A stretch of DNA of 64,000 bases, from positions 186,001 through 250,000 of the forward strand of contig NZ_JAUQSW010000001.1 in assembly GCF_030581075.1 (NCBI RefSeq). The letters are read 5' to 3'. Made by a program: the position numbers and the translations under genes. This document shows, in pieces, positions 52,171 to 61,614 of this stretch (position 1 is its first letter; each line of letters begins with the position of its first letter). The notes under the pieces were generated by a model, which worked only from the letters and a program-made list of their open reading frames with translations, made no database searches and was not told the origin of the DNA. The DNA is from Hymenobacter cheonanensis (lineage in GTDB: Bacteria; Bacteroidota; Bacteroidia; Cytophagales; Hymenobacteraceae).

Positions 52171-52179
52171 CTTTCAGCG

Positions 52180-52261
52180 TGCGCGCGGGGAGATTCGAAC
52201 TCCCACACCCGAAGGCACCACCCCCTCAAGATGGCGTGTCTACCAGTTTCACCACGTGCGC
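52180..52261 (-). tRNA. tRNA-Leu (anticodon GAG)
   Basis: Normal tRNA order: acceptor GCGCACG, D arm region TGGTGAAACTGGTAGACA, anticodon stem CCATC with loop TTGAGGG (anticodon GAG), a long variable arm and T arm GGGAG-TTCGAAT-CTCCC. The acceptor has one A-C mismatch (A5-C68). CCA is not encoded. The spacer on to 52470 shows nothing else. Confidence 0.9.
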
Positions 52262-54222: not shown

Positions 54223-55623
54223 TTAGGCGCCGTCCATCCGCACTATTTTGGGCGTGAAAGAGCCTAGCACATCCACTAGCTCGCGTTGGCTGGCCATCAC
54301 GGTGTGGATGTCTTTATAAGCCATCGGCGCCTCGTCGAGGCCCCCACCAATCAGCTCCACGCCGTAGTCGGCGAGGTGGCGGCGCACTTCGGCTTCGCCT
54401 AGCTCGGCCTTGGCGCGGGTGCGCGACATAAGCCGGCCCGCCCCGTGCGAGGCCGAGGCCAACGACGCCGGCACGCCGCGACCCCGCACGATAAAGCCGG
54501 GGGCCGTCATAGAGCCGGGGATGATGCCGAGCACGCCCGCGCCGGCCGGCGTGGCGCCCTTGCGGTGCGTGATGACCTCGCGGCCATCGGCCAGGCGCTC
54601 CTTCCAGGCGAAGTTGTGGTGGTTTTCGACTTTGGCCAGGGGTTTTTCGCCCAGCGCTTTGGCTAGGCGGCGGTGTATCTGCTCGTGGCAGGCCGAGGCG
54701 TAGTCGCCGGCCAGGGTCATGGCGGCCCAGTACTCCTGGCCGGCTTCGGTGTCGAGGCCTAGCCAGGCGAGGTAGGCGGCTTCGGCGGGCAGCTTGCACA
54801 CGTCGCGGGCAAGGCCGGTGTAGTGCTGCGCCACGCTGGCGCCCAGACCCCGCGAGCCCGAGTGCGAGAGCACGCCCACGTACTGACCCAGCGGCAGGCC
54901 CAGCTCGTTGGCCGGGTCAGTGATTTCAACCAGCCCGAATTCCACGAAGTGGTTGCCTGAGCCCGACGTACCGATTTGCTCGTAGGCCGCGGCGTGCTTG
55001 TTTTTGAGAAACGGGACCGCCGTGAACTCGTCGCGCTCCAGCACCTCGTGGGCCAGGCGCTGCCCGCGCTCCCAGCCCCGGCCGCTGCCGAAGCGGGTGT
55101 TGGCGAGCAGCACAGTGCGCAGCTCCTGGGTGCGCTGCCCCAGGTACTTGGCCGGCAGGTCGAACACTGACAGGGCCATGCGGCAGCCAATGTCCACGCC
55201 CACGGCGTAGGGAATCACCGCGTTATCGGTGGCTAGCACCCCGCCGATGGGCAGGCCGTAGCCGTGGTGGGCATCGGGCATGAGGGCGCCGGCCACCGTC
55301 ACGGGCAACTTCATGGCCACTTCCATCTGGTGGATGGCGCCCGGCTCAATGTACTCGGCCCCGAACGTGGCGTATTCCTTGCGCGGCACCAGCGCCACGT
55401 GCCGCGACGGGGGCGGCAGCAGCGCGGCGGCGGTGTGGCTCCAGGCCAGGTCGGTGAGGTAGTCTTGGGGGTTGGTCAGGATGGTTTTGAGCAGGGCAAG
55501 CTGCTCGGTTTGGGGCAGGCGCTTGTGTTCTTTGCGCTGCAATTGCGCCAGCGCCAGCCCGATAGCGCGGCCCTCGGGAAAGCCGAGCTGCCGCAAGTCG
55601 TTGCCTCGTAAAATAGAAGCCAT
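54223..55623 (-). CDS. rtcB: RNA-splicing ligase RtcB
   Basis: GTP- and Mn-dependent ligase joining 2',3'-cyclic phosphate (3'-phosphate) and 5'-OH RNA ends; 466 residues. Motifs: DAHHGYGLPIGG, VGVDIGCRM, TSGSGNHFVEFG, LSHSGSRGLG, ENHHNFAW, RKGATPAGAG and the guanylylated His in SHGAGRLMSRTRA (near residue 393). The metal ligands look complete. It is the last gene of a co-directional locus with Ro60, Y-RNA-like RNAs, a PARG and a PcfJ protein. RtcA and archease are not in the window. RtcB with Rsr/Ro60 and Yrl RNAs is a known operon pattern in other bacteria. Confidence 0.96.
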   Translation of the reverse strand: MASILRGNDLRQLGFPEGRAIGLALAQLQRKEHKRLPQTEQLALLKTILTNPQDYLTDLAWSHTAAALLPPPSRHVALVPRKEYATFGAEYIEPGAIHQMEVAMKLPVTVAGALMPDAHHGYGLPIGGVLATDNAVIPYAVGVDIGCRMALSVFDLPAKYLGQRTQELRTVLLANTRFGSGRGWERGQRLAHEVLERDEFTAVPFLKNKHAAAYEQIGTSGSGNHFVEFGLVEITDPANELGLPLGQYVGVLSHSGSRGLGASVAQHYTGLARDVCKLPAEAAYLAWLGLDTEAGQEYWAAMTLAGDYASACHEQIHRRLAKALGEKPLAKVENHHNFAWKERLADGREVITHRKGATPAGAGVLGIIPGSMTAPGFIVRGRGVPASLASASHGAGRLMSRTRAKAELGEAEVRRHLADYGVELIGGGLDEAPMAYKDIHTVMASQRELVDVLGSFTPKIVRMDGA

Positions 55624-55691: not shown

Positions 55692-55782
55692 AAAAAAGAA
55701 GCTGCCGGAGCAATGGACGAGCGGCGCACGGTGGCAACGTGACAGGTCGAAGTAGCGCCGCCCTACGGCATCCGGCAGCTTC
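55692..55782 (-). ncRNA. Y-RNA-like RNA Y10 (no tRNA-like domain)
   Basis: GAAGCTGCCGGA and TCCGGCAGCTTC close the RNA as a perfect 12-bp end helix, followed directly by six U. Inside the helix stands the module GATGCCGTAG-GGCGGCG-CTACTTCG and a 3' box ATTGCTCC. About 90 nt long. Ends paired to each other and a U tail are Y-RNA hallmarks. It lies 69 nt before rtcB in transcription order. Confidence 0.85.
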
Positions 55783-55786
55783 GGGC

Positions 55787-55862
55787 AAAGCGGGCGATAA
55801 GCGCGCGGGCCAGGGTTGGTTCGGGTTTCAGACGAAGTAAGCCCGCGCTACGGCACCGCTTT
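55787..55862 (-). ncRNA. Y-RNA-like RNA Y9 (no tRNA-like domain)
   Basis: End helix AAAGCGG with CCGCTTT (perfect), module GGTGCCGTAG-CGCGGGC-TTACTTCG, 3' box ATCGCC. About 76 nt, immediately before Y10 (5-nt gap), so Y9 and Y10 are tandem. No T-arm motif inside. Confidence 0.8.
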
Positions 55863-55887
55863 ATGCTTGAATTTCACCATTATTTCG

Positions 55888-55978
55888 TCATGCTGAGCGT
55901 AGTGAAGCATCTTGCGTGGCGCAGTAATCAAGGCTCTGGCAACGGGGCGAGCGAGATGCTTCACTACGCTCAGCATGA
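55888..55978. repeat. REP-like long inverted repeat
   Basis: Perfect 25-bp arms 55888-55912 and 55954-55978, outer TCATGCTGAGC, inner GTAGTGAAGCATCT. Same family as at 564, 29095, 34601 and 41062. Lies between the PcfJ gene and the Y9/Y10 RNAs. Confidence 0.85.
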
Positions 55979-56023
55979 CAGCATGTGAGTTGGCGCGTTC
56001 AATGTTTAATTGCAAAAGAGGCC

Positions 56024-57322
56024 TCAGTTTTCCCAGGCGTAGGCCGACACCGTGAGACGGGCTTCGGCTAGCCACTGCTGCACCCAGCGCTGCTCCTCGG
56101 GCGAGGCCCGGCGGTTGTAGCGGCCGCGCACCTGCACCAGCTGGCGGGCGGGCGTTAGCTGCAGTGTAAGCATGCGGGCGCCGTTGAAGGTGAGCGAGAA
56201 AATGCCCCCGCGGCCCCGCTGGCACATATACACGTAGCTAGCCACGCAGTGGTGCATGCGCTGGCCTTCTTCGAGCAGCGCGGGGTAATCGCGCAGCTGC
56301 CGCACCTGCACCCAGCCGCCCTCGCCGCCCGCAAAGTCGGGCACCGGCAGGCCGGGCCAGGTGCTTTCGAGCAGCTTCATATACTGCGGGTTGCGGCTGA
56401 TTTTGCCCAGCGTGCGGTGCCAGCGGGCCGTGTGCGCCAGCAAGGAAGCCAGGCTGCGGCCCCGTAGCGAAAAGCCCGGCTGGGCCGGCTCGGCGGGACT
56501 GCCCACGCGCCGCCGAAAATGAATCCAGTCGCACACAGGGCCAAACTGCCAGGGGTCTACATCGGGCTCGGCCCGGAAGAGGTCGAGCACCGCCAGCCAC
56601 AGCCCGTCGTCGGGGCCGATGGCCTCGCGACCCAGGCGCGAGTCGAGGACCACGCCCAGCCACTCGGTGGCGTCGCGCTCGGCCAGCTGGGCGTAGCGGT
56701 AGGCCTCCTGAAAGGTGCAGCCCGCCGGCGCCTGCCGCAACGCGTGCTCTTGGCGCTTGGTGAGAGCCACCGGCCACCCGTCGAAGCGGCGTATGGCCTG
56801 GCCCCGGCCGAGGTGCAGGGCTAGCCGCGTGAGGTCGAGGCCCGCGTGGCGGTCGGGGTCGCTGCCCCAGCCGCCCAGCACCCAGGCCGGCACGTCGCCG
56901 TACTGGTCAAACAAGTGCCGCAGCAGGCTGGCAAGCTGGTAAAACGCATTTTTGGAGGGCGGCTGCCAGGCATTCAGCTCGCGCACCCGGCTGGCGAAGT
57001 GCAGGCCGATGTGCGCCAACGCCGGCACCAGCTCGGGCCGGTGCAGCAACGCCGTGCGGCAGGGCGCCAACTGGCTCAGAAAGTGGCGAATGCGCCACTG
57101 CTCGTTGGTAGAGCGGGTGGCTACGCAGTGCCGATGCAGCGCGGCCAGTACCGAGTGGGGCTCGGTGCGGGTGGCAATATCGGTGGCCGCATCGGCCGAA
57201 AAAAGGTAGGCTAGCTGGCGGGCCGTGGGCCATTTTTGCCAGTTTAGGTGCCGCGCTAAGGCGGCGTCGGCCAGCTGCGCGGTGCGCACCTGGGCCGGCA
57301 GGGGTTTGTTGCGATTGGCCAT
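56024..57322 (-). CDS. PcfJ-domain protein
   Basis: 432 residues from the ATG at 57322 (MANRNKPLPAQV). The C-terminal part matches the PcfJ-like domain: EEGQRMHHCVASYVYMC near residue 353, IFSLTFNGARMLTLQL, then VQVRGRYNRRASPEEQRWVQ. The N-terminal part is helical and Arg/His-rich and not recognised. PcfJ-like proteins occur on plasmids and in other contexts; no biochemical role is secure. It sits between the tRNA-like RNA array and the Y9/Y10 RNAs on the same strand, so a role in binding or processing these RNAs is a reasonable inference. Confidence 0.78.
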   Translation of the reverse strand: MANRNKPLPAQVRTAQLADAALARHLNWQKWPTARQLAYLFSADAATDIATRTEPHSVLAALHRHCVATRSTNEQWRIRHFLSQLAPCRTALLHRPELVPALAHIGLHFASRVRELNAWQPPSKNAFYQLASLLRHLFDQYGDVPAWVLGGWGSDPDRHAGLDLTRLALHLGRGQAIRRFDGWPVALTKRQEHALRQAPAGCTFQEAYRYAQLAERDATEWLGVVLDSRLGREAIGPDDGLWLAVLDLFRAEPDVDPWQFGPVCDWIHFRRRVGSPAEPAQPGFSLRGRSLASLLAHTARWHRTLGKISRNPQYMKLLESTWPGLPVPDFAGGEGGWVQVRQLRDYPALLEEGQRMHHCVASYVYMCQRGRGGIFSLTFNGARMLTLQLTPARQLVQVRGRYNRRASPEEQRWVQQWLAEARLTVSAYAWEN

Positions 57323-57443
57323 ACACAACCGGCGCGGCCACGGGGGCCCGCCGAGCTAGGGGGTGAAATACTCATGTCTGCGAAGGGAGGGGCGATGATA
57401 TCTTTTTGCATGGTGATGCGTGTTGAAGTGAGGAAATAGACCG

Positions 57444-57611
57444 GGCAAACCGGGGTAACAGGCAAGGGGCGGTCCGGTACGGAATCGTGCTTTCGGCCAC
57501 TCAGCCACCGCGCCGCCTGGCGGCGGGCGCGGGCAGGATTCGAACCCGCGGTAGCAGTTGAGTTGCTACAAGATTTAAGAAGTAACGCCCCTCTACGACA
57601 CCCAATTGGCC
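57444..57611 (-). ncRNA. YrlA-like RNA P8, Ser/Leu-like tRNA mimic
   Basis: End helix GGC-C-AATTGGGT with ACCCCGGTT-T-GCC (two wobbles, one bulge each side). Module GGTGTCGTAG-AGGGGCG-TTACTTC and 3' box GTTACC; the GTC/TTA changes keep a pair that others form as U-G. The tRNA-like part is permuted: long variable arm GTAGCA...TGCTAC, T arm GCGGG-TTCGAAT-CCTGC, acceptor CCGCGCC closed by a loop onto GGCGCGG (7/7), then a D arm (GCT...AGC around GAGTGGCC). Anticodon-stem halves CGATT and AATC flank the module side. Confidence 0.82.
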
Positions 57612-57612
57612 T

Positions 57613-57775
57613 TTAACCTAAGCCGGGCAACAGGCGCGGCGCCCGCCAATACGTGCTTTGCCATGTTAAGCTACCGCTGGAAGTAGTTGGTAATCAGTCC
57701 AGCGAGCGGGATTCGAACCCGCAATCCCGTCGTCCCAAACGAAGTAAGGCGCAGCTACGGCACCAGCTTGGTTAA
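57613..57775 (-). ncRNA. YrlA-like RNA P7, permuted tRNA mimic
   Basis: End helix TTAACC-AAGCTGG with CCGGCTT-A-GGTTAA (13 bp with one bulge). Module GGTGCCGTAG-CTGCGCC-TTACTTCG; 3' box CTGTTGCCC. T arm GCGGG-TTCGAAT-CCCGC, then acceptor TCGCTGG, an 18-nt loop containing ACCA, and acceptor CCAGCGG (7/7 with a G-U), then a proper D arm GCTT-AACATGGCA-AAGC. This unit shows the permuted order most clearly. TTTGGGA near the module resembles a Pro(UGG) anticodon loop. Confidence 0.87.
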
Positions 57776-57794
57776 TAGGCAATTCTAATAATTC

Positions 57795-57919
57795 AACCCG
57801 GGCAACAGGCGGTCGGCGCAGCGCCAAAGCCGAGGCGTTGGCACGGGGAGTCGAACCCCAACTCTGATTAACAGTCAGATTTCACCAGACGAAGGAGCGC
57901 CTTCCTACGGCACCGGGTT
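57795..57919 (-). ncRNA. YrlA-like RNA P6, Asn-like tRNA mimic
   Basis: End helix AACCCGG with CCGGGTT (perfect 7 bp). Module GGTGCCGTAG-GAAGGCG-CTCCTTCG; 3' box CTGTTGCCC. Contains a full anticodon arm TCTGA-CTGTTAA-TCAGA (GTT, as in tRNA-Asn) and T arm TGGGG-TTCGACT-CCCCG. Acceptor TGCCAAC folds onto TTTGGCG through an 8-nt loop (6/7). No clear D arm follows, so this copy is reduced. Confidence 0.82.
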
Positions 57920-57929
57920 TTCAAGCATA

Positions 57930-58073
57930 GCTTGGGGCAACAAACGCCCGGCCTTCTATATCCTGCTCTATCAGACTGAGCTACAGCGGCTGCCGAAGCA
58001 GTTGCTGGCAGGATTCAAACCTGCGACCTGGGCGTTAAAAGCGCGAAGTATGGCCGGGCTACGGCACCCAAAC
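57930..58073 (-). ncRNA. YrlA-like RNA P5, Lys-like tRNA mimic
   Basis: End helix GTTTGGG with CCCAAGC (7 bp, one wobble). Module GGTGCCGTAG-CCCGGCC-ATACTTCG; 3' box TTGTTGCCC. Loop CTTTTAA resembles the Lys(UUU) anticodon loop. T arm GCAGG-TTTGAAT-CCTGC; acceptor CAGCAAC continues as CTGC-TTCG-GCAG and folds onto GCCGCTG (two A-C mismatches). A canonical D arm GCTC-AGTCTGATA-GAGC follows. Confidence 0.83.
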
Positions 58074-58082
58074 ACGTAACAG

Positions 58083-58230
58083 CAACGAGGCAACGGGCGG
58101 CGGGCCTTTTAAAATTGTGCGTCTACCAGTTTCGCCACCGGCCCGGGCAAACCCGGGCGCGGGCAGGATTCGAACCTGCACGCCTATGCGGCGCAACTTC
58201 CGAAGTATGACCCACCTACGGCACTCGTTG
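58083..58230 (-). ncRNA. YrlA-like RNA P4, Leu-like tRNA mimic
   Basis: End helix CAACGAG with CTCGTTG (perfect). Module GAGTGCCGTAG-GTGGGTC-ATACTTCG; 3' box CCGTTGCC. T arm GCAGG-TTCGAAT-CCTGC, long variable arm GCGCC-GCATA-GGCGT, acceptor hairpin closing through GCCCGGG-TTTG-CCCGGGC, then a Leu-type D region (GGCGAAACTGGTAGACGC). Anticodon stem CAATT (5' half) can pair with AGTTG (3' half) across the module. Confidence 0.85.
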
Positions 58231-58263
58231 TATGGCAGTAAAAGTGAAGGGCTAGCAGCTGCA

Positions 58264-58422
58264 AATCAATTCTATCGGGGCAACAGACGCATCGCCAGCG
58301 AACCGGCTTCATCCACGTTGCAGCGCGGCTGCCGTTGTGGGCAGCCACTTCGGGAGTTGCACCCGCCACCGGCCCCCAGGGGTGCGAAGTATGGCGGCGC
58401 TACGGCACCCGACGAGTTGATT
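58264..58422 (-). ncRNA. YrlA-like RNA P3, divergent tRNA mimic
   Basis: End helix AATCAA...TCGGG with CCCGA...TTGATT, interrupted by a small internal loop. Module GGTGCCGTAG-CGCCGCC-ATACTTCG; 3' box CTGTTGCCC. T-arm-like hairpin GCGGG-TGCAACT-CCCG (U54 and A58 kept), and an acceptor-like hairpin GGCTGCC-CACAAC-GGCAGCC (perfect). The D arm is weak. The tRNA likeness is lower than in its neighbours. Confidence 0.75.
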
Positions 58423-58490
58423 GTCAATGCTTAGCGTAAAGAAGTTGTTTTCATGTCAGAAAGGTTTTTTGGCGGGCTCCCTCCTCAGGC

Positions 58491-58618
58491 TGCCGGGGCA
58501 ATACGTCACTGGCTACTGCTGCGCTACCGTTGAGCTAGGCTCCTATTGTGGTACTGGTGTCGGGGCGATAAGAATCGAACTCACAACCCGAAGTAACGCC
58601 TAGTTACGACACCCGGCA
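58491..58618 (-). ncRNA. YrlA-like RNA P2, permuted tRNA mimic
   Basis: End helix TGCCGGG with CCCGGCA (perfect). Module GGTGTCGTAA-CTAGGCG-TTACTTCG: the inner stem GTAA/TTAC differs from GTAG/CTAC but still pairs, a compensatory change. 3' box GTATTGCCC. T arm GTGAG-TTCGATT-CTTAT, a linker containing ACCA twice, then a D arm GCTC-AACGGTA-GCGC. The acceptor pairing is imperfect. Confidence 0.8.
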
Positions 58619-58624
58619 ATACCT

Positions 58625-58763
58625 AAAAAACAGGGCAACGAGCGGCTGGCGCAATGTTTTCGTCCGGTGGCCGCAGCCCCCGGCGGGGCTCGAACCCGCA
58701 CGACGTGCCCGAAGCCACGCCCGAAAACTTACCCACGAAGTAGCGCCGGCCTACGGCACCTGC
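58625..58763 (-). ncRNA. Yrl-like RNA P1, first array member
   Basis: End helix GCAGG with CCTGT, then six U: a short helix and U tail. Module GGTGCCGTAG-GCCGGCG-CTACTTCG; 3' box TCGTTGCCC. T arm GCGGG-TTCGAGC-CCCGC, acceptor CGGGGGC folded by TGCG onto GCCACCG (6/7). D arm not evident. CTTCGGG upstream of the T arm resembles an Arg(UCG) anticodon loop. Confidence 0.78.
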
Positions 58764-58788
58764 AAGCGGAAGGGGCTAGCCCAGGTTT

Positions 58789-58833
58789 GGAACGGGCCGC
58801 CGAAGCACTGTCGCCCCGGCGGTAGTCCGTTCC
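58789..58833 (-). other. Strong hairpin ahead of the RNA array
   Basis: GGAACGG pairs with CCGTTCC and CCGCCG with CGGCGG inside, around a 14-nt loop. It lacks the Y module. It lies between the PARG stop and the first array RNA and may be an mRNA end, a processing site or a degenerate RNA unit. Confidence 0.45.
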
Positions 58834-58911
58834 GGCCAGCGGCTGCCATTAAGGGGTCAGCCGTTTGCCTAAGAGATGCGGCATAAAATGCGCGTTAAAA
58901 GGGTGGTACAA

Positions 58912-59760
58912 TTATGTTGCCAGTTCTTTGGTACCCAGTGCCCGCTCGAAGGCTTGCAGCACCGCGTGCGGCGGCTTAGGGTCAAAAATGGCGAAGTCGA
59001 TGCGCCGGAAGCGCCCCCGAATGGCCGGCTCGGCCAGCGCCTCGGCAAAGAGCTGGGCTATTTGCCCCGGGTCGTTGGCAAACACGCCGCAGCCCCAGGC
59101 CCCTAGCACCAGCGCCTCGGCGCCGTGGCGGGCGGCGGCGGCCAGCACCAGCCGCAGCCGCTGGCGCATGGTGGGCACCAGTTGCGGCAGCAGGTGGGGC
59201 GCATTACGCGCTAGCGCCCCGGCATTCACGGCCGGGGCCGTGAGGATGTCGAGCAGCAGCGGCCGGGCTAGCCACTGGCCGTTATCGTGCCGCAGTACGG
59301 GCACGCCAGGCGAGTAAATGAGGTAATCGCTGTAGAGCGCCGTGCTCGTGGGCTGGCTGTTGGCCGCATACATCTCCGCGAATTGCGTGAGGCACGGGTA
59401 CAGCCCCGAGGAACGGGCCAGGCTTTCTTCCTGCGCCTGGCTGCCCCCCAGAAAGCCCCCGCCGGGGTGGCGGGCCGAGGCAAAATTCAGCACCCCTACC
59501 CTGCCGTATTCCGCCGCCAGCTGCGCGGCGGCTTCCAGGGTGGTGGCCCCGTACACGCGCACCTCGGCCAGCGGGCCGGCCGGCCAGGTAAGCTCGCGCA
59601 GGAGGTCGGCGGCATCGGCCGGGCGGTAAAGGTGGCTGCCGGCTTCGGCGGCGCGCTGGGCTTTGGCAAAATTGACGGGGCCGCCAGGGCCTTCGTAGCT
59701 GCCGCGCGCCAGGGCGGCCAGGGTATCGCGGGCCAGTTGCTGGCGGTAGTCGCGGTTCAT
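58912..59760 (-). CDS. Microbial PARG-type ADP-ribose hydrolase (TIGR02452-like)
   Basis: 282 residues. The catalytic signature GGG-x6-8-QEE is present as GGGFLGGSQAQEESLARSS (near residues 100-118), preceded by GVLNFASARHP and followed by VLGAWGCGVFANDP, the macrodomain core of bacterial poly(ADP-ribose) glycohydrolases. It removes ADP-ribose from protein or nucleic acid. It lies between two Y-RNA-like genes in the Ro60-RtcB locus, so its substrate may be modified RNA or a locus protein; that is inference. Confidence 0.88.
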   Translation of the reverse strand: MNRDYRQQLARDTLAALARGSYEGPGGPVNFAKAQRAAEAGSHLYRPADAADLLRELTWPAGPLAEVRVYGATTLEAAAQLAAEYGRVGVLNFASARHPGGGFLGGSQAQEESLARSSGLYPCLTQFAEMYAANSQPTSTALYSDYLIYSPGVPVLRHDNGQWLARPLLLDILTAPAVNAGALARNAPHLLPQLVPTMRQRLRLVLAAAARHGAEALVLGAWGCGVFANDPGQIAQLFAEALAEPAIRGRFRRIDFAIFDPKPPHAVLQAFERALGTKELAT

Positions 59761-59802
59761 GAGAATTATTTCTTTGTAATGAATTAGCTGCCAACCCTTT
59801 AT

Positions 59803-59889
59803 TCATACTGCGCGGAGCGTCTTGCTCGCTTCGTTGCTAGCGCAAGAAATTGCTGCGCCACGCGCAATGCTTCGCTTTGCGCAACATGA
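59803..59889. repeat. Degenerate REP-like palindrome
   Basis: TCATACTGCGC at 59803 and GCGCAACATGA at 59879-59889 are imperfect complements flanking further GC-rich pairing. It resembles a decayed member of the TCATG-type palindromes. Located between the PARG gene and RNA Y1. Confidence 0.4.
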
Positions 59890-59913
59890 TGAAAGGGAGG
59901 ATTCAACCTCTGT

Positions 59914-60026
59914 AAAAAATCGGGCGACAAGCGCTAGGGCTACCGACCTTTCGGCCGTTTTCCGACGGGGCACTTATCCCCAGTCGGCCCTTGAAACGAA
60001 GTAGGCCCTAGCCACGGCACCGATTT
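59914..60026 (-). ncRNA. Y-RNA-like RNA Y1, next to Ro60
   Basis: End helix AAATCGG with CCGATTT (perfect), running into six U. Module GGTGCCGTGG-CTAGGGC-CTACTTCG: inner stem GTGG/CTAC still pairs through G-U. 3' box TTGTCGCCC. The body has a long hairpin (CCGAC-T-GGGG with CCCC-GTCGG) but no T arm. It starts 58 nt after the TROVE stop, the position expected of a Ro60-bound Y RNA. Confidence 0.85.
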
Positions 60027-60084: not shown

Positions 60085-61614
60085 TTACAGCTCGATTTTC
60101 TGAATTTCGGTGAGGGCGCTGCCGCCATTTTCGAGGGCCGCCAGCACGTCGAATACCTTATCGGACCAGCCTGCGATGAGGGCCACGCCGTGCTCGGCGC
60201 GCACGTCGAGCGGGGTGGTGCCGTGGCCGGCCAGGTCGAAGAGATACAGGCGGGCCTGCGGAGCCACGTTGGCGCGGTAGGCAGCCCATTCCTGGGCTAG
60301 GGTGCGGTCGCGGCCGGTGCCGTCCCAGAGCTGGCAGTCGGTGAAAATCATCACTTTATCGACGACTTCCCCACGCTGGCGCAGGTCCTGGATAACGAGG
60401 TGGCCGTTGGTGGCGTAGCCCACCTCACCCTCGCGGCGGTACAGCTCCTGCACGTTGCGCAGCACCTGGCCCTGGGGCAAGGGCACCCGCTTCCAGGTGT
60501 TGCCAAACATGCCGGTTACCACGTGCTGGCAGCGGCTTTGCAGCAACATGCCCAGCACCAGGCCCACGTCGTAGAGCAGCACTTTGCTGCGCGGCGAGAT
60601 GGGTTGCTGCATCGAGCCCGACACGTCGCACGCCACCACCACGCGGGTGTTGCCATCGAACCCGCGCAGGTTGCGCACGCTGGCCGAAATGGCCGTTTCG
60701 AGCGCCGCCAGCACCGGCGCCCCCGCCCCTGCGTTCAAAGCCAGCACCTCGCGGTAGGCAGCCAGAAAGCGGAAGGGCAGCTGCTTGGCGCGGGCCACCT
60801 GGCCGGGGTCGGCCAGGGTGGCGCAGGCGTGGGCTAGCACGTCGGCACTCACGCTGGCTTCCAGCAAGTTGCGCAGGTTGCGCAGCAAGGCCATGTAGCC
60901 CAGGCGGCCGCTCAGCACCAGGGTTTCCCAGGTGCGGGCCACGGCCGCCTGGCGCTCGGCGGCCGTGGCGTAGGCCACCTGCCCGGCGGCCGACAACTCG
61001 GTTTCCCAGGTGTAGGGCGTGGGCAGGGTGCCGGCCACCAATTGGTCGAATACGGCCTGCTGGCCCTCATCGCGCGGCTTGGGGTGCACCAGGAATAAGG
61101 CATCGCGCAGGCGCACGGCCCCCTCGCGGTTGTACTTAGCCAGCTGATAAGCGTCGAACTTATTGAAGGCCAAGGCCAAGCCGTGCTGCATTTGCTTGGA
61201 AAGCCGGCCCAGGGTTTTAATCCCGCTGCGGCCGTTGGCCTGGGCGTAGAAGGCCAGCAACTCCGGAATTTCATCGGCCCTCTGCACCACCCGCGCCACC
61301 AGGCGGCTCACCAGGCTATCGCCGCGGTGGATGCGCGCCAGCTCCACGGCCAGCACCAGCGGCACCGAGCGCAGGTAAAGCTGCTCGCGGGCATACACGG
61401 CCAGCCGGGCCACGAAGGCCGGCTCGTTCTTGGCCACCAGCTCGCGCAGGCGGGCTAGCCGGGTGTCGGCCTTTTCGTAGAACTGGTCGCTGAGGGCCGC
61501 CGTAGCTACGGCCGCGTACAGCTCCAGGGCCGGGGTGAGCACGTAGGCCGGCGCCCCTTCGTGGTTGCGAACCGGCGCAGGCGGCGCTTTGCGAAAATTG
61601 AAATTGAAGCGCAT
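60085..61614 (-). CDS. rsr: TROVE-domain protein (bacterial Ro60/Rsr)
   Basis: 509 residues. The N-terminal TROVE HEAT-like ring is clear: DTRLARLRELVAKNEPAFVA, YAREQLYLRSVPLVLAVELA, QHGLALAFNKFDAYQLAKYN. The C-terminal VWA-like domain has its MIDAS in VACDVSGSM near residue 328. Ro60/Rsr rings bind Y RNAs on the outside and misfolded RNA ends in the hole, and guide nucleases. The gene leads the locus of Y-RNA-like RNAs, PARG, PcfJ and RtcB and has a long leader with two terminators. The symbol follows the bacterial usage for Ro60. Confidence 0.93.
   Translation of the reverse strand: MRFNFNFRKAPPAPVRNHEGAPAYVLTPALELYAAVATAALSDQFYEKADTRLARLRELVAKNEPAFVARLAVYAREQLYLRSVPLVLAVELARIHRGDSLVSRLVARVVQRADEIPELLAFYAQANGRSGIKTLGRLSKQMQHGLALAFNKFDAYQLAKYNREGAVRLRDALFLVHPKPRDEGQQAVFDQLVAGTLPTPYTWETELSAAGQVAYATAAERQAAVARTWETLVLSGRLGYMALLRNLRNLLEASVSADVLAHACATLADPGQVARAKQLPFRFLAAYREVLALNAGAGAPVLAALETAISASVRNLRGFDGNTRVVVACDVSGSMQQPISPRSKVLLYDVGLVLGMLLQSRCQHVVTGMFGNTWKRVPLPQGQVLRNVQELYRREGEVGYATNGHLVIQDLRQRGEVVDKVMIFTDCQLWDGTGRDRTLAQEWAAYRANVAPQARLYLFDLAGHGTTPLDVRAEHGVALIAGWSDKVFDVLAALENGGSALTEIQKIEL

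Follow-up and report, generated by a model that had tools for sequence, protein, structure and literature searches.

A minus-strand array of eleven predicted Y-type RNAs, several with tRNA anticodon loops, beside the Ro60 gene of Hymenobacter cheonanensis

We analysed a 64,000-nucleotide stretch of the Hymenobacter cheonanensis genome (contig NZ_JAUQSW010000001.1, positions 186,001 to 250,000; hereafter the window, with coordinates counted from its first letter) and describe an array of eleven predicted Y-type RNAs, R1 to R11, lying between genes for Ro60 and RtcB. A combined motif and helix search places all eleven modules at 55703-60026, every one on the minus strand, along which the order is Ro60, R1, a PARG-type macro protein, R2 to R9, a PcfJ-like protein, R10 and R11, and RtcB. 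It is established that the modules belong to a Y-type RNA family tied to Ro60, with more members per locus than Salmonella's two, and that about a third of this family, by a rule-based count, carries an anticodon hairpin. Our favoured reading, to which we give slightly less than an even chance, is that the RNAs are Ro60-held tRNA decoys that trap enzymes which cut anticodons, or report their presence, and that RtcB likely reseals the RNAs that are cut. An earlier note, made from the letters alone, had recognised the eleven modules and likened them to Y RNAs; it did not include helix II, the permuted tRNA domains or the anticodon loops, nor did it name the neighbouring RtcB, PARG-type and PcfJ-like genes.

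Read 5' to 3', each module has a private helix I of at least 7 base pairs, a bulged U, two pairs (mostly GC/GC), an internal loop with CGUA on its 5' side and about GYYUGUY on its 3' side, and helix II, which comprises 7 base pairs extended by the last G of GUAG; YUAC-UUCG and then a variable domain follow. Helix I, which the earlier note had described as private end helices that always pair, is paired at 74 of 77 positions in the window copies against a shuffled mean of 50.2 (maximum 66 in 1000 shuffles), with 7/7 pairs in nine copies, 6/7 in R4 and 5/7 in R2. The 3' strand of helix II ends 10 nucleotides before the 3' arm and its partner is the seven nucleotides after GUAG, where eleven different 7-mers give 69/77 pairs (shuffled 44.7, maximum 59). 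Among 159 RNAs from 27 loci, helix II is paired at 921/1113 positions versus 612 after shuffling (maximum 652) and helix I at 1049/1113 versus 687; for 422 distinct RNAs from 80 named loci the figures are 2507/2954 versus 1572 and 2792/2954 versus 1738. The last G of GUAG pairs in 151 of the 159 RNAs (shuffled 140.5, maximum 146). In all eleven window copies, the two bases that follow the bulged U are paired to the end of the 3' box. The finder required these pairs, so that the information lies in the pair types alone: as second pair nine copies have C-G, one U-A and one U-G, and of the 159 RNAs 127 have C-G, 24 U-A, 7 U-G and 1 G-C. Two sequence blocks named in the earlier note hold in most copies, with GGUGCC exact in 7/11 (R3 and R9 have GGUGUC, R5 AGUGCC, R11 GAUGCC) and UUCG present in 10/11 (R9 has UUCU).

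The core fold drawn in that note, a four-pair covarying GUAG-N7-YUAC hairpin around an unpaired 7-nucleotide loop, was rejected as the main fold. Four pairs form in only 7/11 copies (R4, R5 and R6 have GUAG/AUAC, and R7 has CUCC), and stem pairing equals that of shuffled partners: 40/44 versus 39.6 in the eleven copies, 543/636 versus 543.4 in the 159 RNAs and 1437/1688 versus 1437.9 in the 422. Alignment A1, described below, holds zero two-sided changes in this hairpin. The finder's motif keeps three of the four pairs nearly constant, leaving the fourth free to vary, and that pair is formed in 112/159 RNAs versus 112.35 after shuffling. A model of Y RNAs built on this hairpin can point to the near constancy of GUA and UAC and to the seven complete copies; with no covariation, and with the seven nucleotides pairing instead in helix II at the rates given above, we consider it extremely improbable. 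A pseudoknot, in which the 7-nucleotide loop would be fully paired, is a separate possibility.

Less exposed to what the finder itself demands are the eleven window copies, already listed in the earlier note, a covariance model that reaches other types, and unconstrained folds. The covariance model rests on 21 sequences of a single type, R6 being the sole window member among them. Across the 64-kb window it found all eleven RNAs with E values of 2.1e-9 or lower; the next match has E 0.007. Unconstrained folds equal the constrained ones for R1, R2, R5, R6, R10 and R11. In alignment A1, scored on a structure that is mostly the alignment's own consensus, 94.8% of cells are paired versus 81.8 after shuffling, covariation is 0.427 versus 0.177, and 19 pairs changed on both sides. 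RNAalifold, unprompted, returned helices I and II, a T arm, a 10-bp capped acceptor and a D arm, together with an anticodon arm in the short Asp type. The 159 RNAs were kept from 168 hits of a stricter finder, nine being dropped as off-strand or low-scoring; this finder misses some RNAs, giving two at locus L078 where an earlier, looser one scored four. Judged from sequence, helices I and II, the bulged U and the 3' box are common to the copies, and both helices covary. Covariation with homologues, on which the earlier note had staked its RNA family, came out in favour of a real one.

The same note expected matches near TROVE genes elsewhere, and these came out for linkage to Ro60. Among 59 genomes (the window's own and 58 relatives), 27 encode Ro60, and clustered motifs (at least two exact-motif hits within 2 kb) occur in 25/27 Ro60-positive and 0/32 Ro60-negative genomes. 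The motif was present in 48/395 genomes of a phylum sample, many of them with lone scattered hits; of 14 stretches fetched from 13 motif-positive genomes, ten hold arrays of 3-6 RNAs, each array lying downstream of Ro60 and sharing its strand; the four array-free stretches (4/4) also lack Ro60. We then scanned a genome collection with an 11-sequence Ro60 alignment and analysed the best 80 of 554 loci, which span Hymenobacter, Pontibacter, Rufibacter, Flavobacterium, Chitinophaga, Cesiribacter, Saprospiraceae and others. At least one module is present at 80/80 of these and at least two at 79/80; 425 modules lie on the Ro60 strand versus 1 on the opposite strand, and all 425 same-strand modules are downstream of Ro60, with a median distance of 189 bases to the first. 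This arrangement, shared by the window array directly downstream of its TROVE/Ro60 gene, bears out the Y RNA identity that had been proposed.

Run on 33 loci (25 of the 27 cellular ones outside the Hymenobacter group and 8 of 40 viral, finder-positive), the covariance model matched all 33, with 91/91 matches on the Ro60 strand, three of them partial and possibly ordinary tRNAs. In the window's own genome it gave 9/11 RNAs at E < 0.001 (R1 and R7 not listed) in a search that scored only 150 of 5431 candidates, and four weaker matches elsewhere (E 7.9e-6 to 5.1e-4) that overlap tRNA genes. The two Hymenobacter sets overlap and the orthologues within each are related, so the counts drawn from these sets are not independent. 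Because the module goes with Ro60 and shares the layout of the bacterial Y RNA YrlA, Ro60 would be expected to bind it. In two relatives in-frame stops interrupt the Ro60 gene, and in another the gene is split (L047, L052, L053/L058).

The variable domain is predicted to be tRNA-like and circularly permuted. An alignment of 21 R6-type RNAs shows a T arm, a D arm and a capped acceptor stack of 10 bp. Once the anticodon hairpin is included, the elements run anticodon stem-loop, V, T, acceptor, cap and D, which is a circular permutation. The tRNA is predicted to be opened between nucleotides 26 and 27 in R6 and R8 and nearer 7/8 in R7. Among 130 RNAs with a middle of more than 50 nucleotides, 118 have a T arm (shuffled 10, maximum 18) and 96 a D-arm motif (shuffled 35.5, maximum 49). 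In the window, T arms occur in R2 to R9 (8/11, R4 with 4/5 pairs) and D motifs in R3, R5, R6, R8 and R9 (5/11); neither was found in R1, R10 or R11, and the R10 and R11 types are short, keeping little beyond an anticodon loop or arm. A long variable arm and a Leu/Ser-type D arm give R5 and R9 class-II features. The unconstrained minimum-free-energy (MFE) structure of R5 forms helices I and II and the V, T and acceptor stems (z -2.55), that of R8 departs from the proposed tRNA-like fold (z -0.53), and a D-like hairpin on the 5' side of R7 is proposed by eye only. Plain or degenerate tRNA genes were rejected, as the window copies match host tRNAs in pieces only. ARAGORN reported a single tRNA in the window, tRNA-Leu at 52179-52261, and none of the eleven RNAs, and the Rfam tRNA model scored R6 at 25.1 bits, below its cut-off of 29. 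At another locus (L080, 11688-11936), an R3-type Y RNA has an insertion of about 120 nucleotides with palindromic parts between its T and D arms.

UUCG often forms the 5' strand of a hairpin with a 7-nucleotide loop. Exact host tRNA loops occur in R6 (Lys-UUU), R7 (Asn-GUU), R8 (Pro-UGG) and R11 (Asp-GUC), and three of these four RNAs hold the loop inside the predicted tRNA-like fold; the R7 hairpin lies deeper in the middle than those of other copies, within 19 nucleotides identical to host tRNA-Asn. The R10 loop CUGAAAC is one base off the host Phe loop CUGAAAA, and the Trp-CCA loop CUCCAAA is present in apparent R4 counterparts elsewhere and absent from R4 itself. Using as reference 37 loops from the window's genome only, applied to relatives too, we found an exact-loop hairpin anywhere in 29 of the 159 RNAs (shuffled 1.0, maximum 6), three probably by chance, and reverse-complement loops in 0/159. 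Of the 422 distinct RNAs, 143 close a 7-nucleotide loop with U33 on the UUCG strand (shuffled 14.1, maximum 24), and 59 have a loop identical to that of a window-genome tRNA, covering 10 isoacceptors (shuffled 0.04, maximum 1).

The position occupied by the Lys loop in R6, which we call the Lys slot, is orthologous across 55 RNAs, found at 48 of the 53 loci in Hymenobacter and its kin, and holds 18 triplets. U33 is kept in 53/55 and A37 in 51/55, neither being required by the search; entropies at positions 32-38 are 1.05, 0.26, 1.51, 1.38, 1.19, 0.45 and 1.21. The stems change in step with pairing (GCA/UGC 38, CGA/UCG 9, GCG/CGC 6, GCA/CGC 2), in a search that demanded at least two Watson-Crick pairs, and the Asp loop at L130 is closed by AAC/GUU instead of CGAC/GUCG. 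Loops are steadier in other types, with CUGAAAA in 16/27 short R10-type and CUGUCAC in 16/32 R11-type RNAs.

Related arrays may extend to phages. IMG/VR contains 40 contigs, of predicted viral status, with Ro60 relatives, and a slightly looser motif was found on the Ro60 strand in 17/40 and on the opposite strand in 2; some of these hits are doubtful, one lies inside the Ro60 gene, and contigs L223/L224 and L233/L234 duplicate each other. L230 has six modules, and both L223 and L230 carry UUCGA[CUUGUAA]UCGA, an exact Thr-UGU loop. Contigs L237, L240 and L231 of this collection have runs of ordinary tRNA genes close to the Ro60 relative.

Table 1. The minus-strand run of four protein genes and eleven predicted RNAs, in 5' to 3' order, with the anticodon hairpins of individual copies (CM, covariance model; z, folding z score).
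Feature	Position in window	Strand	Support
Ro60/Rsr gene, first of run	60085..61614	-	Pfam TROVE 1.5e-27, vWA_Ro60 9.4e-8
R1, predicted Y RNA: two hairpins besides helices I and II, T arm not detected	59917..60026	-	z -2.59; CM E 1e-12
Microbial PARG-type macro-domain gene (TIGR02452)	58912..59760	-	
R2, predicted Y RNA with variable arm and T arm	58628..58765	-	CM E 1e-13
R3, predicted Y RNA: T arm straight after UUCG, D-like motif, weak helix II (4/7)	58491..58618	-	CM E 2.1e-9
R4, predicted Y RNA with T-like arm (4/5 pairs)	58273..58414	-	CM E 2.2e-15
R5, predicted Y RNA: class-II (Leu-like) tRNA domain with V arm, T arm, capped acceptor and Leu-type D arm	58083..58230	-	CM E 7e-22
R6, predicted Y RNA: permuted tRNA domain, Lys-UUU anticodon loop	57930..58073	-	z -2.14
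R6 anticodon hairpin GCG[CUUUUAA]CGC, loop as in host tRNA-Lys(UUU)	58032..58044	-	in unconstrained MFE fold
R7, predicted Y RNA: Asn anticodon arm followed by T arm and capped acceptor	57795..57919	-	z -2.37
R7 anticodon hairpin UCUGA[CUGUUAA]UCAGA, within 19-nt exact match to host tRNA-Asn(GUU)	57863..57879	-	
R8, predicted Y RNA: Pro anticodon loop with T arm, acceptor stem and D-like motif	57620..57769	-	CM E 2.9e-27
R8 anticodon hairpin UCG[UUUGGGA]CGA, loop as in host tRNA-Pro(UGG)	57730..57742	-	
R9, predicted Y RNA: class-II (Ser-like) tRNA domain, long variable arm, T arm	57448..57607	-	CM E 2.7e-17
PcfJ-like gene; GNAT-like C-terminal fold predicted, weak	56024..57328	-	
R10, short predicted Y RNA: Phe-like loop CUGAAAC, closing stem not stable	55787..55862	-	z -2.68
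R11, short predicted Y RNA, anticodon arm only; helix I extends to 55698-55782	55703..55777	-	z -1.96
R11 anticodon hairpin CGAC[CUGUCAC]GUUG, loop as in host tRNA-Asp(GUC)	55735..55749	-	14-RNA same-type consensus fold; unconstrained MFE fold
RtcB RNA ligase gene, last of run	54223..55623	-	Pfam RtcB 3.4e-81

The protein genes of the run recur beside other arrays. We searched the fetched stretches of 37 array loci (the window, L059-L084 and ten of L127-L140) by tblastn with the window proteins and found RtcB at 29/37, the PcfJ-like protein at 15/37 (one of the 15 genes being a fragment) and the PARG-type protein at 8/37; RtcB is present at all 23 array loci of the first Hymenobacter set. The closest named relatives of both the PcfJ-like protein and Ro60 are from Hymenobacter. 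The Ro60 alignment matched five sequences in the PDB, all TROVE/Ro60/Rsr chains. The solved chains of PDB 9l5y and 9kop ('TROVE domain-containing protein', E 3.3e-38), on which a literature search turned up no paper, are much closer matches to this Ro60 family than Deinococcus Rsr (E 1e-6) and animal Ro60 (E 6.5e-14). A long inverted repeat (GTCATGCTGAGCGTAGTGAAGCATCT...) lies between R10 and the PcfJ-like gene at 55887-55979 and matches the Rfam family AaHKsRNA41 on both strands, below cut-off, and a second palindrome-like stretch was seen by eye near R1 at about 59800-59890; both are probably dispersed repeats.

In the mechanism that we favour, Ro60 would hold the module RNAs, their anticodon loops would serve as decoys or sensors for tRNA-cutting enzymes, and RtcB would reseal the RNAs that are cut. 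The loops probably face anticodon-reading enzymes, and anticodon-specific nucleases in particular, because a capped acceptor could not be charged and because, within the loop, the triplet varies while the tRNA hallmarks stay; the decoy function is our inference. Repair by RtcB is suggested by gene order and by the known end chemistry of the enzyme. Nucleases are the best candidates because RtcB joins the types of end left by metal-independent cuts and because the same arrangement seems to be present on some viral contigs. They are also favoured because tRNA fragments induce the Salmonella operon and because a competitive-inhibitor role has already been suggested for YrlA (PMC7790460). A broader form of the proposal, which we put forward more tentatively as a possibility, is that Bacteroidota and some of their phages keep a library of Ro60-bound, non-chargeable permuted tRNAs with swappable loops, each decoying a different anticodon nuclease and resealable by the neighbouring RtcB. 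Such a library would amount to a repertoire of RNA-based immunity to toxins that cut tRNAs, evolving through the exchange of loops.

Several observations weigh against the decoy reading. Exact host loops occur in only 4/11 window RNAs, with none in R1, R2, R3, R5 or R9 and none left in R4, and 279/422 RNAs have no anticodon hairpin by the rule used. Lys-slot positions 32 and 38 vary too (entropies 1.05 and 1.21), the slot triplets show no enrichment for host anticodons (12/18 versus 58% of all triplets, on a host list that lacks Ile and some others), and A34, rare in bacterial tRNAs, is found in 19/143 loops. RtcB was not found in the fetched stretch at 8/37 array loci, and the four proteins of the run match no known defence family in PADLOC, a protein-only library in which the RNAs have no place. 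The pairing totals are inflated by a finder that demands some pairing in helices I and II, alignments made from its hits inherit part of this, and the counts come from related sequences. YrlA has been reported to be uncut by the Salmonella nuclease (PMC7790460).

The RNAs might be ordinary YrlA-type Y RNAs whose tRNA-like domain only docks an effector such as PNPase, a double-ring machine that degrades RNA, and gates Ro60, the loops being by-products of tRNA ancestry. The role that Y RNA is known to play with Rsr and PNPase (PMC8394870, PMC7790460), the conserved T arm, acceptor and D arm, and the 279 RNAs without an anticodon hairpin all agree with this; it leaves unexplained the presence of as many as eleven copies, two short types reduced to an anticodon arm or loop, and 18 triplets in one slot with U33 and A37 kept, and we regard it as unlikely though worth serious weight. 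We find it rather improbable that the mimics form a repair platform, holding RtcB or other repair enzymes on Ro60 and aligning cut tRNA halves, with loops that match the tRNAs repaired: the 29/37 loci with RtcB would suit such a platform, but the ligase was not found near the remaining eight arrays and a platform for it has no need of anticodon variety. The RNAs could also be substrates or sponges of tRNA-modifying enzymes that recognise the anticodon loop, and in this way tune how the real tRNAs are modified. YrlA is modified by DusA and TruB (PMC8394870), and T loops, D arms and, in 51/55 Lys-slot RNAs, A37 are kept here, but neither the RtcB link nor the change of triplet between close species is accounted for, and we judge this quite improbable. 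Loop-varied arrays whose triplets shift between close species while U33 and A37 are kept point to anticodon-reading partners. They make the purpose of the tRNA-like domain, and the presence of Ro60 in RNA-repair operons, directly testable: from each array one would predict the tRNA cutters that its owner encounters.

In Deinococcus and animal Y RNAs, a stem of paired ends with a bulge beside an internal loop forms the Ro60 site; animal Y RNAs are not known to mimic anticodons. Among bacterial Y RNAs, the window RNAs most invite comparison with YrlA (Rfam RF02553), which is likewise encoded beside Rsr/Ro60 and, in some bacteria, with RtcB. Both have a basal helix, an internal loop, a 7-bp helix and a CUUGUCGCC-like 3' strand, and both have a T arm, acceptor and D arm in permuted order (Rfam alignment; PMC11472068), circular permutation of the YrlA domain being seen in structure 6CU1 (PMC11472068). 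By contrast, the 5' strand of the module differs from the YrlA consensus, and the Rfam YrlA model scores R6 at 38.7 bits and the tRNA part of R8 at 30.4 bits versus a gathering cut-off of 69, with the other nine copies unlisted up to E 5. The window RNAs also add an anticodon stem-loop; the Rfam YrlA consensus shows no such hairpin, and in the excerpts of a review only D, T and acceptor mimicry is described (PMC8394870).

As in the Salmonella rsr-yrlBA-rtcBA operon, Ro60, Y RNAs and RtcB form one run (PMC7790460), here with eleven RNA copies rather than the two Y RNAs described there (PMC7790460). Unlike that operon, the run has no RtcA or RtcR among its four proteins, the only part of the genome searched for them. 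What the tRNA-like domain does in bacterial Y RNAs, and the place of Ro60 in RNA-repair operons, are described as open questions (PMC7790460). A search of the open literature gave no recognised description of anticodon loops in Y RNAs; the founding papers fall outside its coverage. As far as the literature covered shows, the Y RNA, the tRNA mimic and the repair operon are known, and the array, the anticodon arms and their turnover would be new for this class of RNA.

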